Shown here one piece after another: positions 1,171 through 6,392 of a stretch of DNA of 64,000 nt. Source of the stretch: Pseudomonas fluorescens (GTDB lineage Bacteria; Pseudomonadota; Gammaproteobacteria; Pseudomonadales; Pseudomonadaceae). The stretch's first letter is position 1. The number at the start of each line of letters is the position of its first letter. The notes beneath the pieces are model-generated. The model did not search any database, was not told the DNA's origin, and saw only the letters and a program-made list of their open reading frames with translations. The position numbers and the translations under genes are program-made. Where the stretch lies: NCBI GenBank assembly GCA_902825215.1, contig LR782234.1, positions 2,542,001-2,606,000 on the forward strand, in the 5' to 3' direction.

Positions 1171-1214
1171 ACAATACCGAACCTGTGGGAGATTCTATGG
1201 TTCATGCCTAGCCC

Positions 1215-2162
1215 CTAAACGCCTTTGGGTGAGTATTCGCTCTGGTTTTTCAGCAGAGCAAATACCACCCGTGCAAGCTTGCGGGCTAGTGCGACCAGTG
1301 CTTGGGTAGTGCTCAGTCCGCGCCCTCTCATAGCCTCATAAAACCCTTTCCACGCCGAGGTCCGGCTCGCCGCCATTGCAGCGTTGTGCAGCAACCGACG
1401 TGCCTCAGGGTCGCCTCGTTTGGTCAGGCAGCGGCGGCCTTTCTTTTTGCCTGAGTCCGCTATGCGCAGATCCATGCCTAGAAAGGCGATGAAAGCGTCC
1501 GCATTTCTGAAGTCCCCACGCTGAAAGGATGCGAGCAAGCGGGCGCCAGTCAACGTACCGATGCCTTCGACCTTCATGCAGCGCTTGAGCTGCGCGCCCA
1601 AACCGGCTTCCTCTATCTGCGTCAGGATCATTTTTTCAAGCAAGGTTTCCAGCCTTTGCATGGCGCTTATCTGATTCTTGAAAGCGGTTTTGAGCAGCGG
1701 CTCATTCTCCCAGCTCTGCTTGAGGCTGACACGAGCCTGAACCAGAGCCGCACGGCGCCGGAACAGACTGATGAGCCGGCAATACAGGGGGGACGGCGGC
1801 GTCCAGGGGCGCAAATGGTCCCCTTCGTTTGTCAGATACCGGGCCAATAATCGAGCATCCAGCGCATCAGTTTTAGCGCGAACGTTCACGCCTTTGCGGT
1901 AATGACTGAGTTCATAACCGCCAACCATATAGATCCTGCAGCCATCCGCGTGCGCGAGCTCGGCAAACTCCTGGTGATAAATATTGGTGGCTTCGATGGC
2001 GATTGCTACTGGTTTGGCAACGGTTTTGAGCCATTTCTTGATCGCCGTTTTGGTATTGGAGATTGTCTCGAGCCGATCCGATTCGACGTGATAAATCACC
2101 AGTTCGTCCTTGGCGACATCAACCCCGACAATCGACTGGGTAGTAGCGACGGGCATTGCCAT
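1215..2162 (-). CDS. IS110-family transposase (DEDD recombinase)
   Basis: A 315-residue protein. The N-terminal RuvC-like domain shows the DEDD residues D15 (GVDVAKD), E57 (AIEATN), D99 and D102 (KTDALDA). A coiled region follows. The C-terminal Transposase_20 domain contains VEGIGTLTGARLLASF and the segment DSGKKKGRRCLTKRGD with candidate catalytic serine S237. The start at 2162 is chosen because GGAGG stands 7 nt upstream. The gene is full length with no frameshift, so the element may be active. IS110 enzymes are guided by a bridge RNA encoded in the noncoding end. Confidence 0.95.
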   Translation of the reverse strand: MAMPVATTQSIVGVDVAKDELVIYHVESDRLETISNTKTAIKKWLKTVAKPVAIAIEATNIYHQEFAELAHADGCRIYMVGGYELSHYRKGVNVRAKTDALDARLLARYLTNEGDHLRPWTPPSPLYCRLISLFRRRAALVQARVSLKQSWENEPLLKTAFKNQISAMQRLETLLEKMILTQIEEAGLGAQLKRCMKVEGIGTLTGARLLASFQRGDFRNADAFIAFLGMDLRIADSGKKKGRRCLTKRGDPEARRLLHNAAMAASRTSAWKGFYEAMRGRGLSTTQALVALARKLARVVFALLKNQSEYSPKGV

Positions 2163-2199
2163 GAGAAATCCTCCGGGCTAAGGTTTGAACACTTGAAGG

Positions 2200-2345
2200 G
2201 TTCACCCAGAGGCGCAGGCTTGTTCCTATCGTCGGTCTAGGCCAGATGCATTCTTTATCGGCGCTTGGGTGAAAGGAGGAGGGTGAAAATCTCCCACGGT
2301 CTGTACTGCGCTAACAGTCAGAATCGAGCCTTGTCCCTCCTCCTC
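2200..2345 (-). ncRNA. Predicted IS110 bridge RNA with REP-specific target guides
   Basis: The noncoding region upstream of the transposase folds, in the transposase sense, into two internal-loop hairpins. The first has a perfect 9-bp stem (2335-2343 with 2275-2283). Its loop holds AGGCTCG (complement of 2325-2331), then GTGGGAG (complement of 2291-2297). These fit the left and right halves of the occupied REP target with core CT. The second stem (2261-2271 with 2203-2215) encloses AGAAT (complement of 2250-2254) and ACAAG (complement of 2219-2223). These fit the two ends of the element (ATAGAAT-CT and CT-TGTATG). The order left guide then right guide agrees with known bridge RNAs. Exact RNA ends are estimated. 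Confidence 0.72.
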
Positions 2346-2367
2346 CCTTCAAGTCCTACCATACAAG

Positions 2368-2450
2368 CGAGCCTGCTCGCGAAGAGGTTGTGTCAGTCAC
2401 CCATCATGTTGATTGACACACCGCATTCGCGAGCAGGCTCGCTCCCACAG
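2368..2450. repeat. REPIN interrupted by the IS110 element
   Basis: Two REP arms in inverted orientation: CGAGCCTGCTCGCGAAG at 2368 on and GCGAGCAGGCTCGCTCCCACAG ending at 2450. The missing outer part of the first arm (CCTGTGGGAG) lies at 1182-1191 on the far side of the IS. The second arm overlaps the 3' end of the downstream ABC ATPase reading frame. Confidence 0.9.
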
Positions 2451-3628
2451 ATAAATTTCATGGATTGAAAATTTTTGTGGGCACCGGCAGCCTTGTTCAG
2501 GTCGCTCTCGGTCCATTCGGTATAAACGCAAGCATCCGTCGTGGCCCAGCGCACGTGCACCGGGTCGCCGGCCTTGAGCGGCATGCCGGCGGCTGACAAG
2601 GCTTTCACCGTCATCGAGGTTCCGCCTGCGGTGACCACGCTGCAAGTCTGGCTTTCGCCGAGAAACAGCACTTCCACCACGGTCGCTGACACTTCGTTCC
2701 AGCCCGATGGCAGCGGTTCGATGCTCGCCTGCTGCACGCTCAAGGCCAAGGCCTTTTCCGGCCGTACCATCAGCAAGACATCCTGATCAGTCTGCAGCCC
2801 GGCCGTCAGCCGGATCGACAACGGCTGCCCCTCGAAACTCGCCGCCGCATTGCCTTGGGCCTTGAGCTTGAGAAAGTTCGAGTTGCCAAGGAACGACGCG
2901 ACAAAGGCATTCGGCGGATTCTGATACAGGTCATAACCGCTGCCCAGGCCGACAATCTTGCCGTGGCTGAAGATCGCAATGCGCTGGGACAAACGCATGG
3001 CTTCTTCCTGATCGTGGGTCACATAGACGATGGTGATGCCCAGGCGCCGGTGCAGTTGGCGCAGTTCGTCCTGCAAATCCTCGCGCAGTTTTTTGTCCAG
3101 CGCACCGAGCGGTTCGTCCATCAGCAGAATGCGTGGTTCGTAAACCAGCGCGCGGGCGATGGCCACGCGTTGCTGCTGGCCGCCGGACAGTTGCGAAGGG
3201 CGGCGATGGGCGAACTGTTCCAGTTGCACCAGTTTCAGCATGGCGTCGACACGCTTGTCGCGCTCGGCCGCCGCCAGTTTGCGAATCGCCAAGGGGAAGG
3301 CGATGTTGTCGCGCACCGACAGATGCGGGAACAGCGAATAGCGCTGGAAGACCATGCCGATGTCGCGCTTGTGCGGCGGCACGTTGACCAGCGATTGACC
3401 ATTAACCAGGATCTCGCCACTGCTCGGTGTTTCAAACCCGGCGAGCATCGACAGCGTCGTACTTTTGCCTGAGCCGCTGGAGCCGAGGAAGGTCAGGAAC
3501 TCGCCGTCCTTGATGTCCAGCGAGATGTTGTCGACGGCAGCAAAATCGCCGTAGTGCTTGTTCAGGTTGCGCAGGCTGACCAGGGGTTTGTCGTGCTGCT
3601 GGGAGGCGTCTTTGATCACGGCACTCAT
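2393..3628 (-). CDS. ABC transporter ATP-binding protein (PotA-like)
   Basis: A 411-residue ATPase energising the importer encoded just upstream. It has Walker A GSSGSGKST (49-57), a Q-loop in VFQRYSLFPH, signature LSGGQQQRVAIARA (about 147-160), Walker B ILLMDEP (167-173), the D-loop GALDKK and switch histidine in YVTHDQEEA. A C-terminal TOBE-type regulatory domain follows. This is the PotA/spermidine-putrescine class layout. The start at 3628 (MSAVIKD) lies 17 nt after the inner permease stop; the longer upstream reading is overlap with the permease. The last ~20 codons (from ICGSEPARE) are translated REPIN sequence, so the natural C-terminus was probably shorter. Confidence 0.9.
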   Translation of the reverse strand: MSAVIKDASQQHDKPLVSLRNLNKHYGDFAAVDNISLDIKDGEFLTFLGSSGSGKSTTLSMLAGFETPSSGEILVNGQSLVNVPPHKRDIGMVFQRYSLFPHLSVRDNIAFPLAIRKLAAAERDKRVDAMLKLVQLEQFAHRRPSQLSGGQQQRVAIARALVYEPRILLMDEPLGALDKKLREDLQDELRQLHRRLGITIVYVTHDQEEAMRLSQRIAIFSHGKIVGLGSGYDLYQNPPNAFVASFLGNSNFLKLKAQGNAAASFEGQPLSIRLTAGLQTDQDVLLMVRPEKALALSVQQASIEPLPSGWNEVSATVVEVLFLGESQTCSVVTAGGTSMTVKALSAAGMPLKAGDPVHVRWATTDACVYTEWTESDLNKAAGAHKNFQSMKFICGSEPARECGVSINMMGD

Positions 3629-3645
3629 GTCGTACTCCTCGGCGC

Positions 3646-4455
3646 TCAGGCGCTGATTTCGTTGCGCCGGCGCAGAGCGGCGGCGATCACCATGACCAGG
3701 ACCGACAGGCCGATCAGCAGCGTCGAAGCGACGGCGATCACCGGGGTCAGGTCCTGGCGCAAAGTGGTCCACATTTTCACGGGAAGGGTTTGCAGAGTCG
3801 GGCTTGCCATCATCACGCTGAGCACCACTTCGTCCCACGAAACGAGGAAGGCGAAGAGGGCGCCGGCGACCATGCCCGGACGAATCGCCGGGAACGTCAC
3901 CTTGAACACTGCTTGCAGGCGCGAGGCGCCGCAGATCACCGCCGCGTCTTCAATTGACTGATCGAACAGCTTCAACGAGTTGATGATCGAGATGATGGTG
4001 AACGGCAGCGCGACGATCACATGGCTGACGACGAAGGCGAACATCGTCCCGGTGTAGCCGAGCTTGAGAAACAGCGCGTACACCGCCACGGCAATGATCA
4101 CCAGCGGCACGATCATCGGCAGGGTGAACAGGCCGTAAAGCATCTCGCGACCGGGAAAGCGCCCACGTACCAGCGCAAACGCGGTTGGCAAGCCGAGGGC
4201 CACGGCGCAAATCGTCGTCAGCACGGCGACTTTAAGACTGGCCGCAGCGGCGCTCATCCAGTCCGGATTGGAGAAGAACTGGCCGTACCACTTCAGCGTC
4301 CAGCCCGGTGGCGGGAACACCAGCCACTGCGAGGAGCCGAACGACAGCAGCACAATGAACACGATCGGCAACAGCAGGAACAGACCGATCAGCCCGGTAG
4401 TGGCGTACAAGCCGAAACGCATGCGCCGGCTCATCGCGTTGGGTGTCAGGAGCAT
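3646..4455 (-). CDS. ABC transporter permease (PotC/PotI-like)
   Basis: A 269-residue inner-membrane protein with about six hydrophobic segments. The EAA loop near 170-190 reads DAAVICGASRLQAVFKVTFPAIRPG, the contact site for the ATPase. It pairs with the permease ending at 4462 to form the channel of an importer for polyamine-like or related small organic cations. It follows the first permease after 6 nt. The exact substrate cannot be read from the sequence. An internal methionine eight codons in is an alternative start. Confidence 0.88.
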   Translation of the reverse strand: MLLTPNAMSRRMRFGLYATTGLIGLFLLLPIVFIVLLSFGSSQWLVFPPPGWTLKWYGQFFSNPDWMSAAAASLKVAVLTTICAVALGLPTAFALVRGRFPGREMLYGLFTLPMIVPLVIIAVAVYALFLKLGYTGTMFAFVVSHVIVALPFTIISIINSLKLFDQSIEDAAVICGASRLQAVFKVTFPAIRPGMVAGALFAFLVSWDEVVLSVMMASPTLQTLPVKMWTTLRQDLTPVIAVASTLLIGLSVLVMVIAAALRRRNEISA

Positions 4456-4461
4456 TTCCGC

Positions 4462-5370
4462 TTACCTCGCATTGCTGGCGCCAACCGGGGATTCCGGCTG
4501 AAGCTTCAGGTAGAAGTAGAACAGCACCAGCGTGATCGCGATCAGCAACGCGGCGCCGGCACTGGCCAGGCCCCAGTTGAGGAACGATTGCACCTGCTGA
4601 ATGATGAACTCCGGCAGCATCATGTTCTGCGCGCCGCCGAGCAGCGCCGGGGTGACGTAGTAACCGAGCGACATCACGAACACCATCAAGCCACCGGAGG
4701 CCAGACCCGGCCGGCACAGCGGCAGGAACACCCGGAAGAAATTGGTCCACGGGCTCGCGCCGCAGATCGAGCCGGCCTGCAGGATCATCGGATCGATGGC
4801 CTGCATGGTCGCCTGCAACGGCAGGACGATGAACGGGATCATGATGTAGCTCATGCCAATCACCACGCCGGTGAGGTTGTGCACCATCTCCAGTGGCTGA
4901 TCGATGATGCCCATAGCCATCAGCGCCTTGTTGATCACGCCCGAGGCTTGCAGCAACACCAGCCACGAATAGGTGCGGGCGAGCAGGCTGGTCCACATCG
5001 ACAGCAGCACGATATTGAGAATCCAGCGGCCCCAGCCGCGCGGCACCAGGGTGATCGCCCACGCCAGCGGAAAGCCCAACAGCAGGCTGAACAAAGTCAC
5101 CAGTCCGGCCACCGAGAAGGTGTTGAGCAACACCCGCGCATACGCCGAGTTGGCGAACAGTTGTTCATAGTTGCCAAGGCCAGGCACAGGTTCGAGCACC
5201 CCGCGCAACAGCAGGCCAATCAACGGCGCCAGAAAGAACAGGCCGAGGAACAATAGCGCCGGGGCGAGGTTGCCAGCGCCGCGCCAGCGTTGCTTGAGGG
5301 ACGAACCGGCAGCGCCGGCGGCGCTCCCGGTGGCAGTGGACGGAACGGGCGCAGTGGCCGCGATTTTCAT
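4462..5370 (-). CDS. ABC transporter permease (PotB/PotH-like)
   Basis: A 302-residue membrane protein. A cytoplasmic N-terminus rich in Ala/Ser/Pro (about 35 residues) precedes the first membrane segment (LAPALLFLGLFFLAPLIGLLL). An EAA-type loop (LQAGSICGASPWTNFFRVFLPLCRPG) is present. The start at 5370 overlaps the stop of the binding-protein gene as ATGA, which favours it over the start seven codons upstream. It is the first of two permeases in the SBP-permease-permease-ATPase operon. Confidence 0.88.
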   Translation of the reverse strand: MKIAATAPVPSTATGSAAGAAGSSLKQRWRGAGNLAPALLFLGLFFLAPLIGLLLRGVLEPVPGLGNYEQLFANSAYARVLLNTFSVAGLVTLFSLLLGFPLAWAITLVPRGWGRWILNIVLLSMWTSLLARTYSWLVLLQASGVINKALMAMGIIDQPLEMVHNLTGVVIGMSYIMIPFIVLPLQATMQAIDPMILQAGSICGASPWTNFFRVFLPLCRPGLASGGLMVFVMSLGYYVTPALLGGAQNMMLPEFIIQQVQSFLNWGLASAGAALLIAITLVLFYFYLKLQPESPVGASNAR

Positions 5371-6392
5371 TTGACCAGCCATTCGTTCCACCGTGTCGCG
5401 ATGGCCGGACCGTTCTTGGCCCAGTACGCGAAATCAAGAGTGATCTGATCCTTGGCGTAGGCAGTCGGCAGGTTGGGGGCCAGCGTCGAATCCAGACGCT
5501 CCACACTGTCGAGGTTGACCGGCGCATAGGCGGTCAGGTTGGAGAAGTCGGCCTGGCCTTTGGCGCTGCTCGCGTTGGCGAGGAACTTCATCGCCGCGTC
5601 CTTGTTTTTCGCACCTTTTGGAATGACCAGAATGTCGGCCATGACCAGGTTCTGTTTCCAGCTCACGCCGACCGGTGCGCCGTCTTCCTGCAGGGCATGC
5701 ACACGACCGTTCCAGAACTGGCCCATGCTCGCTTCACCGGAGGCCAGCAGTTGCTGCGACTGCGCGCCGCCGCCCCACCAGACGATGTCTTTCTTGATGG
5801 TGTCGAGTTTCTTGAAAGCGCGATCCATGTCGAGCGGGTAGAGCTTGTCGGCGGCGACGCCATCGGCCAGCAGGGCCAGTTCGAGCACGCCGGGGCTCGG
5901 CCATTTGTACAGGGCGCGTTTGCCGGGGTAAGTCTTGGTGTCGAACAGCGCACTCCAGTCCTGCGGCTTGTTGGCGCCGAGCTTGCCTTCGTTGTAGCCG
6001 AGGACAAAGGAGAAGAAGAACGAGCCGACGCCGTGATCGTTGACGAAACGCGGGTCGATCTTGTCGCGCTGGATCACTTTGAAATCGAGGGGTTCGAGCA
6101 GGCCTTCAGCCGCAGCGCGCAAGGCGAAATCGGCTTCGACATCGACCACGTCCCATTGCACGTTGCCGCTTTCGACCATGGCCTTGAGTTTGCCGTAGTC
6201 GGTCGGGCCGTCCTGGACGACGGTGATGCCGCTGGCCTTGCTGAACGGATCGGCCCAGGCCTGTTTCTGCGCATCCTGGGTGCTACCGCCCCAGCTGACG
6301 AAGTTGACGCTTTCGGCAGCCATTGCAGCCTGGCCGGTGACGCTGAGCAGTCCCGCAAACAGAATTGCGGTTGCAGCTTTGTTCAACACCAT
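5367..6392 (-). CDS. ABC transporter periplasmic substrate-binding protein (PotD/PotF-like)
   Basis: A 341-residue precursor with a Sec signal peptide (MVLNKAATAILFAGLLSVTG then AAMA, cleavage near residue 25). The mature part begins with the SVNFVSWGGSTQDAQKQAWA pattern of type II periplasmic binding proteins for polyamines and related compounds. It is the first gene of the importer operon. About 96 bp upstream is a GntR-type palindrome shared with the neighbouring catabolic genes. The importer therefore probably supplies the substrate of that cluster. The ligand itself is unknown. Confidence 0.88.
   Translation of the reverse strand: MVLNKAATAILFAGLLSVTGQAAMAAESVNFVSWGGSTQDAQKQAWADPFSKASGITVVQDGPTDYGKLKAMVESGNVQWDVVDVEADFALRAAAEGLLEPLDFKVIQRDKIDPRFVNDHGVGSFFFSFVLGYNEGKLGANKPQDWSALFDTKTYPGKRALYKWPSPGVLELALLADGVAADKLYPLDMDRAFKKLDTIKKDIVWWGGGAQSQQLLASGEASMGQFWNGRVHALQEDGAPVGVSWKQNLVMADILVIPKGAKNKDAAMKFLANASSAKGQADFSNLTAYAPVNLDSVERLDSTLAPNLPTAYAKDQITLDFAYWAKNGPAIATRWNEWLVK

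Follow-up and report, generated by a model that had tools for sequence, protein, structure and literature searches.

A REP-targeting IS110-group element of Pseudomonas fluorescens with a probable bridge RNA whose guides follow the insertion site

What is the function of the long noncoding end of an insertion sequence in Pseudomonas fluorescens, and can it account for the presence of the element within a REP repeat? The element lies near one end of the window, by which we mean the whole stretch of 64,000 nt analyzed here. Bridge RNAs with four guides, and covariation between guides and targets, have been described for IS110 elements (PMC11208160), and insertion into REPs by IS110/IS1111 elements has been published for IS621, ISPpu9, ISPpu10 and ISPa11 (PMC1525189, PMC11187229). 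Papers are cited here by PMC number. We conclude that the noncoding region is, with high probability, the bridge RNA of an IS110-group insertion sequence that targets REP repeats. This conclusion draws directly on the anatomy of the element, the position of all four of its copies, guide-target covariation and base-pair covariation; transcription, RNA binding and strand exchange would be expected by analogy with the family. The locus is a convincing new example of a published, recently discovered mechanism, and REP-targeting IS110 elements as such are not new. In a literature search of mainly open-access journal papers, no title or abstract opening dealt with the guide set of this Pseudomonas clade.

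The element and its REP target

The transposase (Table 1) matches Pfam families PF01548 (DEDD_Tnp_IS110; 8.4e-21) and PF02371 (Transposase_20; 1.8e-18), and phmmer aligns its residues 11-307 with the IS621 chain 8wt6_A (E 7.2e-20) and with ISCro4 (E 1.2e-18). Residues D15, E57, D99, D102 and S237 align with D11, E60, D102, D105 and S241 of IS621, whose residue numbers and catalytic roles are taken from PMC11208158. The protein has the RuvC-like DEDD domain and the Tnp domain with a catalytic serine that characterize the IS110 group. The noncoding ends also follow the pattern of that group, being long on the left (205 nt, 2163-2367) and short on the right (23 nt, 1192-1214). Upstream of the transposase start codon is GGAGG (2170-2174). 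Read in the transposase sense, the element starts at 2367 with CTTGTATGG and ends at 1192 with ATAGAAT, and the core dinucleotide CT is found at both junctions (2366-2367 and 1190-1191).

Four copies of the element, with protein identities of 98-100%, are present in its own genome (G000, 6.25 Mb). All four sit at TTCGCGAGCAGGCTCG-CT-CCCAC, and the sequence further out differs between copies; in the window, the right flank is CCCACAGG. The joined 14-mer AGGCTCGCTCCCAC has 703 exact occurrences in this genome, and the reversed control has none. Given the shared flanks and the abundance of the 14-mer, the target is half of a common REP, which is entered at a fixed position and in a fixed orientation. 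The interrupted REP (2368-2383) faces a second, intact inverted REP at 2426-2450, 42 bp away. As judged by eye, the flanking genes are methionine-aminopeptidase-like (379-1170) and ABC-transporter-like (2393-6392), and the REPs lie between them.

A search of the own genome for orphan bridge RNAs with the covariance model described below (R1) returned exactly four RNAs, each adjoining one transposase copy. The same genome encodes a fifth, distant IS110 transposase (L005, G000:C1:2435223-2436068; 27% identity), at which R1 found no match. Rfam at gathering thresholds gave no matches in the window, and plasmids gave no DNA match to the element; two relatives were found among viral contigs. Copies in G046 that could be taken for elements with an internally deleted transposase were rejected, as the gap is a run of 100 N (scaffold gap). 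Two candidates for an empty site, L274 and L275, have the matching spacer without the element, but also without this REP, and hence show absence of the element rather than a joined target site.

Table 1. Features of the element, its target and its predicted RNA (window coordinates; arms and guides in transposase sense)
Feature	Position	Strand	Basis
Whole insertion sequence, left end 2367, right end 1192	1192-2367	(-)	Ends common to four genomic copies with differing outer flanks
IS110-group DEDD transposase/recombinase, 315 aa	1215-2162	(-)	Pfam, phmmer, catalytic motif positions
Left half of interrupted REP, TTCGCGAGCAGGCTCG; left target AGGCTCG at 2368-2374	2368-2383	(-)	Identical in 4/4 own copies
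Right target half, core CT + CCCAC	1185-1191	(-)	Sequence, own copies
Left-end TATGGT, short subterminal repeat and -10-like hexamer	2358-2363	(-)	Covaries with right end
Right-end ACCATA, partner of TATGGT	1196-1201	(-)	Complementarity across 44 elements
Weak -35-like TAGGCA	1205-1210	(-)	17 bp from TATGGT when ends are joined in a circle
Predicted bridge RNA covered by covariance model, 164 nt	2191-2354	(-)	Model R1
Closing stem, 5' arm ACUUGAAGGG	2345-2354	(-)	Pairs with 2191-2200
Closing stem, 3' arm CCCUUCAAGU	2191-2200	(-)	Covariation, fold
Target-loop stem, 5' arm	2335-2344	(-)	Pairs with 2274-2283
Target-loop stem, 3' arm	2274-2283	(-)	Covariation
Left target guide AGGCTCG	2325-2331	(-)	7/7 to target; slot-specific match; 145-site test
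Hairpin between target guides, UCUG-ACUG / CAGU-A-CAGA	2300-2322	(-)	Covariation
Right target guide GTGGGAG, reverse complement of CTCCCAC	2291-2297	(-)	Guide-target comparisons
Donor-loop stem, 5' arm: UUCACCCA 2266-2273, GCGC 2261-2264	2261-2273	(-)	Covariation
Donor-loop stem, 3' arm: GCGC 2212-2215, UGGGUGAA 2201-2208	2201-2215	(-)	Covariation
Left donor guide AGAAU, same letters as right end AGAAT (1192-1196)	2250-2254	(-)	[AG]GAAT in 45/46
Right donor guide ACAAG, complementary to CTTGT at left end	2219-2223	(-)	Base + CAAG in 45/46

Target guides and insertion sites

The original prediction read AGGCTCG and GTGGGAG as guides for the two target halves around the core CT, and these segments do match the interrupted REP, AGGCTCG-CT-CCCAC. 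In the IS621 scheme, the left guide equals the top-strand left target and the right guide is the reverse complement of core plus right target. Order and strand sense here agree with that scheme, and the proposal of a bridge-RNA recombinase programmed for a dispersed repeat is supported. One correction is that the left guide does not include the core. In the window, the left guide is followed by AT (2323-2324), not CT, and across the 145 insertion sites described below, this slot reads AT in 111, CA in 18, CT in 10 and GA in 6. At most sites, then, the left guide has no match to the core.

With guides of only 5-7 nt, short matches could conceivably coincide in a GC-rich leader. Among 20,000 dinucleotide shuffles of the 205 nt, AGGCTCG appeared in 273 and GTGGGAG in 486, both target guides in order appeared in 1, and all four guides in order appeared in 0, bearing out the earlier assertion that such an arrangement is hard to get by chance. 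The donor pair alone (two 5-mers) was found in order in 110 of 5,000 shuffles, and is weak evidence by itself. The four-guide count speaks against coincidence, and the covariation over homologues refutes it; we regard its chance as extremely small.

We compared guides with insertion sites across the genus. In the genus-wide search, 44 of 298 genomes (own included) gave matches at E<=1e-40, to which 80 genome_contigs loci were added. In all, 202 of 213 loci were parsed, yielding 145 unique left flanks, 7 of these without a right end; nine loci lacking the 5' end and two without a readable left end (L060 and L098) were excluded. The left guide was read at a fixed place before UCUGA and compared with the 7 nt before the core. 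Guide and flank were identical (7/7) at 79 of the 145 sites, with one mismatch at 42 and two or more at 24; thus, at least 6/7 positions agreed at 121 sites. The mean of 6.17/7 compares to 5.00 (sd 0.07) for permuted pairs, and none of 10,000 permutations was as high. For the right guide, GTGGGAG is paired with CTCCCAC at 127 sites, GTAGGAG with CTCCTAC at 7 (six from one genome), GTGAGAG with CTCCCAC at 3, and GTGGGAG with CTCTCAC at 1, the other 7 being those that lack a right end.

One caveat here is that REPs resemble each other and many copies are related. The test was therefore repeated on 46 diverse elements, in which left-guide agreement was 5.63/7, versus 3.71 when permuted, and right-guide agreement was 6.88/7, versus 6.34 (43 elements with a right end). 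Neither value was reached in 20,000 permutations, which, like those above, ignore relatedness. Relatedness was taken into account by use of the transposase tree (45 of the 46 elements) and independent pairs. GTAGGAG requires six changes on the tree, of which well supported branches force at least four, and all six elements with this guide have CCTAC. Right guide and target agree in 4/4 independent pairs (L207 left out), a number too small for a sign test to give p<0.05. For the left guide, position -6 agrees on average in 7.0 of 8 independent pairs and position -3 in 7.4 of 9 (median p 0.016 for each); at positions -5, -4, -2 and -1, the rest of the six tested (-7 was not among them), p does not reach 0.05.

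The left match is specific to its slot. When the left flank was slid along the RNA, identity was 0.80 at the guide slot, compared to 0.40 at the next best offset and 0.27 on average, and for 25 elements with uncommon left targets, identity at the slot was still 0.75. In the analogous scan of the right flank, no single maximum stood out, owing to variable spacing from the hairpin: identity was highest in the G-rich stem (0.59, at -12) and was 0.55 close to the right guide (at +34). Support for the right guide comes from the 145-site and 46-element tests, and one right target is common to most sites.

Homologues inserted elsewhere are particularly informative. L226 and L227 (40-41% aa identity) reside in one genome. 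The left flanks TCCCTGG (L226) and TCCTTGG (L227) are one base apart, and each guide is identical to its own flank (7/7), so that guide and target of this pair of copies vary at one and the same position. Both have the right flank CATCG, to which the L227 guide (CGATGAG) fits exactly, as CTCATCG, and the L226 guide (CGACGAG) fits 6/7. At AGATCCG-CT-CCTAC, both guides of L253 match fully; its sister copies L256 and L258 lie at AAGGTCCG, one base off. The L207 right guide, GTGAGAG, matches 6/7, and the left guide of L232, whose left flank is unlike a REP, matches 5/7. The right guide follows the target among CCCAC, CCTAC and CATCG, also at non-REP sites. Guide variants across the genus and its relatives mostly fit the local insertion site; guides change with the target, and retention of the same loops at other targets, which the original prediction had named as grounds for abandoning it, was not seen.

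These homologues bear on the idea that the region mainly serves the transposase mRNA as a regulatory 5' leader, acting through structure or antisense RNA, and that the guide matches are captured REP remnants. The closing stem ends 16 nt before GGAGG, and in ISPpu9, 5'-UTR structure and two sRNAs are reported to affect transposase translation (PMC8450116), as this idea would have it. However, capture of REPs cannot explain guides that track other targets, as in L226, L227 and L232, nor can it explain the slot specificity of the left guide or the changes in the right guide among CCTAC, CCCAC and CATCG. Moreover, regulation and guiding can coexist. We consider a chiefly regulatory role very unlikely.

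The same loci argue against selection of the site by the transposase or by the REP hairpin itself, with the RNA a mere scaffold. Beside the core, the left flank is REP-like at 136 of the 145 sites, with four or five of 5 bp palindromic. Yet among the nine flanks with three or fewer palindromic pairs, six match the guide 6/7 or 7/7 (L145, L175, L178, L153, L163 and L097), although worn REPs may be among them; the remainder are L051 (an assembly artefact), L093 and L155. The palindrome may thus not be required, bearing in mind that the sample is small and flanks are perhaps rearranged. The flanks of L226 and L227 lack such a palindrome and equal their guides. Site choice without RNA guidance is extremely improbable in our estimation.

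Misses do occur. At 13 of the 145 sites, the left guide matches 4/7 or less. In L203-L206, guide and hairpin are one nucleotide further apart, L051 is the artefact mentioned above, and the rest (L155, L093, L188, L101, L076, L094, L190 and L191) are misses or rearranged flanks. Among the 46 diverse elements, nine match 4/7 or less at the slot (L155, L093, L191, L231, L206, L229, L224, L260 and L223); a one-base shift improves the fit of L206, L231, L260 and L223, on an after-the-fact reading. In L229 and its second copy L240, the left guide misfits the flank, CTCCCTAACCCT, and the right guide fits. In L260, the left side reads GATCG-TT and the right side CT-CCCACG; the guide, CAATCGTT, is shifted one base from the slot and was accordingly counted as a miss (1/7). 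L260-L264 (G808) have TT at the left junction (GG/TT in the flank context of L262) and the core CT on the right, and their left guide reads TT, as if target and donor cores differed and one was kept per junction. These misses notwithstanding, left and right target guides covary with the insertion site, as in the IS110 group.

On one RNA scaffold, the left guides include AGGCTCG, AAGCTCG, AAGCCCG, AAGCCAG, AAGCCGG, TAGTTCG, AGATCCG, GAGCTCG, TCCCTGG and others. They document natural reprogramming in a single genus and its relatives, and the guide sets are candidate variants already tried by nature. They also show a mobile element following the drift of dispersed repeats of its host, in this genome with 703 copies of the target.

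Fold of the RNA and the donor side

The 205-nt left end is predicted to fold into a three-way structure consisting of a closing stem, a target loop and a donor loop. For the window sequence alone, the minimum free energy is -72 kcal/mol (z -1.88), a level reached by 5 of 200 shuffles. This is only a mild advantage over shuffles, and hence the case for structure rests on covariation. Model R1, a covariance model built from 15 close sequences, detects the RNA in 48 of the 49 sources searched, including 14 that had contributed to the model, down to 40% transposase identity; the exception is L005. The alignment has 46 rows, as L005 (no match), L083 (repeated copy) and L188 (truncated RNA) were left out. 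The 15 closest sequences contain a single pair changed on both sides and are uninformative, which is why distant homologues were added.

Across the 46 distinct sequences, 91.9% of cells pair. Changes on both sides are seen in 35 of 44 base pairs, compared to a shuffled mean of 21.0 and to 9-13 when the structure is slid by 1-3 columns; compensatory cells number 241, versus 57 shuffled and 21-42 slid. Fitting the alignment to the model inflates the percentage paired, and the compensatory excess over slid versions is the stronger point. Both-side changes affect 9/10 pairs of the closing stem, 6/10 of the target-loop stem and 6/8 of the inter-guide hairpin, in which 97.4% of cells are paired. Thus, covariance folding across homologues, put forward as a check by the original prediction, yielded compensatory changes in 35/44 pairs, and target- and donor-binding internal loops with covariation support are present, as in the IS110 group.

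The anatomy was largely foreseen, and some of its details changed. The target stem, given as 9 bp (2335-2343/2275-2283), is present and is 10 bp long (2335-2344/2274-2283). The second stem, given as 2261-2271/2203-2215, exists as the donor stem, refined to 2266-2273/2201-2208 plus 2261-2264/2212-2215. What had been missed is the closing stem, which encloses the two loops with 10 bp (2345-2354/2191-2200) and lies at or just beyond the limits of the region first described. In each of the 46 elements, 7-10 of its 10 possible pairs can form.

AGAAT and ACAAG had been assigned to the left and right donor ends, and both match the element ends in sequence. An AU lying 4 nt upstream of ACAAG could pair with the next AT, as in the discontiguous scheme of IS621, and AT is found upstream of the right donor guide in 43/46 elements. 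The element ends are nearly constant (CTTGTATG in 44/46), and as donor guides and ends hardly vary, covariation cannot be tested on this side. Pairing of the donor guides with the joined ends would agree with the scheme by analogy. The published handshake pairing would predict that the base following the right donor guide varies with the last base ahead of the target core. Of four elements whose guide ends in A or C, two conform (L207 and L231; G with C, U with A), and two, L229 and L232, depart from it.

The ends contain a further element that varies in concert. The left and right subterminal hexamers are complementary at 6/6 positions in 34 of 44 elements and at 5/6 in the remaining 10 (TATGGT/ACCATA in 18, TATGTT/AACATA in 15, TATGTC/GACATA in 1, and ten others one base off). 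Observed complementarity (5.77/6) exceeds the permuted value (5.26) and was not reached in 20,000 permutations of the 44 elements. This repeat is 6 bp, versus the 2-3 bp given for a repeat of this kind in PMC11208160. With the ends joined, most of the 44 elements have a TTGNNN-like hexamer ~17 bp from TATGNT. The hexamer of the window element, TAGGCA, agrees with TTGACA at 4/6 positions; over 44 elements, the mean score of 3.41/6 in the circle exceeds both that of the inserted junction (1.86) and that of shuffled right ends (2.42).

By analogy with its relatives, the element would excise as a circle, and the left end would be transcribed from a promoter that spans the junction of the two ends. 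The RNA would fold into a closed three-way structure with target-binding and donor-binding loops, and in the donor loop, AGAAU and (AU..)ACAAG would pair with the joined ends. The DEDD/Ser recombinase would then exchange strands at the CT core, with insertion at one fixed REP position and orientation.

Known relatives and a possible switch in long-leader homologues

A close parallel is IS621 of E. coli (L285; PMC11208160, PMC11208158). It shares with the window element a DEDD/Ser recombinase, the CT core, a REP target, the guide strand scheme and a left-end bridge RNA with target and donor loops. The two also differ in several respects. IS621 has a 5' stem-loop before the target loop (PMC11208160, PMC11208158), whereas the window element has a 13-nt unstructured leader and no such stem-loop. 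In IS621, the core dinucleotide is within the left target guide; in the window element, the left guide has no core match, and its right target guide is 7 nt. As we read L285, the donor-loop stem reaches the start codon and there is no closing stem, in contrast to the window element. A search with R1 found nothing in IS621 or three of its relatives. The closing stem together with the short leader is a testable design difference from IS621.

ISPpu10 of P. putida (IS110 family) resembles the window element, by its published description, in having a REP target in Pseudomonas, a 2-bp direct repeat and a predicted bridge RNA; Extended Data Fig. 10 of PMC11208160 depicts its bridge RNA along with those of five other elements. 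ISPa11 and the IS1111 group (seekRNA, PMC11187229) are likewise RNA-guided DEDD transposases, and the target of ISPa11 is a REP. In the IS1111 group, tnp usually precedes the noncoding region, the subterminal repeats are longer and the order of the target matches is reversed (PMC11187229); in the window element, unlike in that group, the noncoding region is upstream of tnp and the repeat is 6 bp. ISPpu9 of P. putida KT2440 (PMC8450116) is of the IS110 family, inserts in REPs and has a long structured 5' leader, and its direct repeat, AG (=CT), equals the core of the window element. In that paper, which predates bridge RNAs, ISPpu9 is described as regulated by an antisense RNA, Asr9, and a sense RNA, Ssr9.

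The length of the leader before the closing stem varies among homologues. In the window element and 30 others, it is 13-14 nt with no strong 5' hairpin. Of 15 elements with leaders of at least 20 nt, 12 (32-42 nt) have a 5' stem-loop of -9.7 to -26.7 kcal/mol (leader + 12 nt), and three (20-22 nt) have weaker 5' hairpins (-2.8 to -7.0). In the 12 long-leader homologues, the 3' arm of the 5' stem-loop overlaps the 5' arm of the closing stem, so that the two compete for the same strand (b). Folds forced into a:b (5' stem-loop) or b:c (closing stem) are 0.1-9.2 kcal/mol apart in these 12 elements (a:b/b:c -70.6/-71.0 in L221, -69.7/-68.4 in L222 and -79.6/-79.5 in L226), and in several elements, the unforced optimum is below both forced folds, making mixed folds possible. 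Strand c is positioned between the donor loop and the ribosome-binding site of the transposase. The leader structure of ISPpu9 is reported to restrain transposase translation (PMC8450116).

We tentatively raise a reading that we ourselves find rather doubtful. These elements may form a clade with a closed three-way junction, in whose long-leader members strand b pairs in a:b or b:c as a co-transcriptional switch between guide RNA and transposase message, and the clade of the window element may have lost strand a and, with it, the switch. Were this so, one transcript could serve as guide and message without over-expressing the recombinase. The long-leader homologues include L221, L222, L226, L227, L108 and L260.

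Two minor observations concern small RNAs. Ssr9 is flanked by copies of the element ends and is also found alone elsewhere (PMC8450116), a description that reads like that of a mini-element consisting of the bridge RNA only. On the plus strand of the window, a 112-aa ORF (1902-2240) overlaps the predicted bridge RNA and the start of tnp, and this interval is a candidate for an antisense transcript, as Asr9 occupies a similar place in ISPpu9 (PMC8450116).
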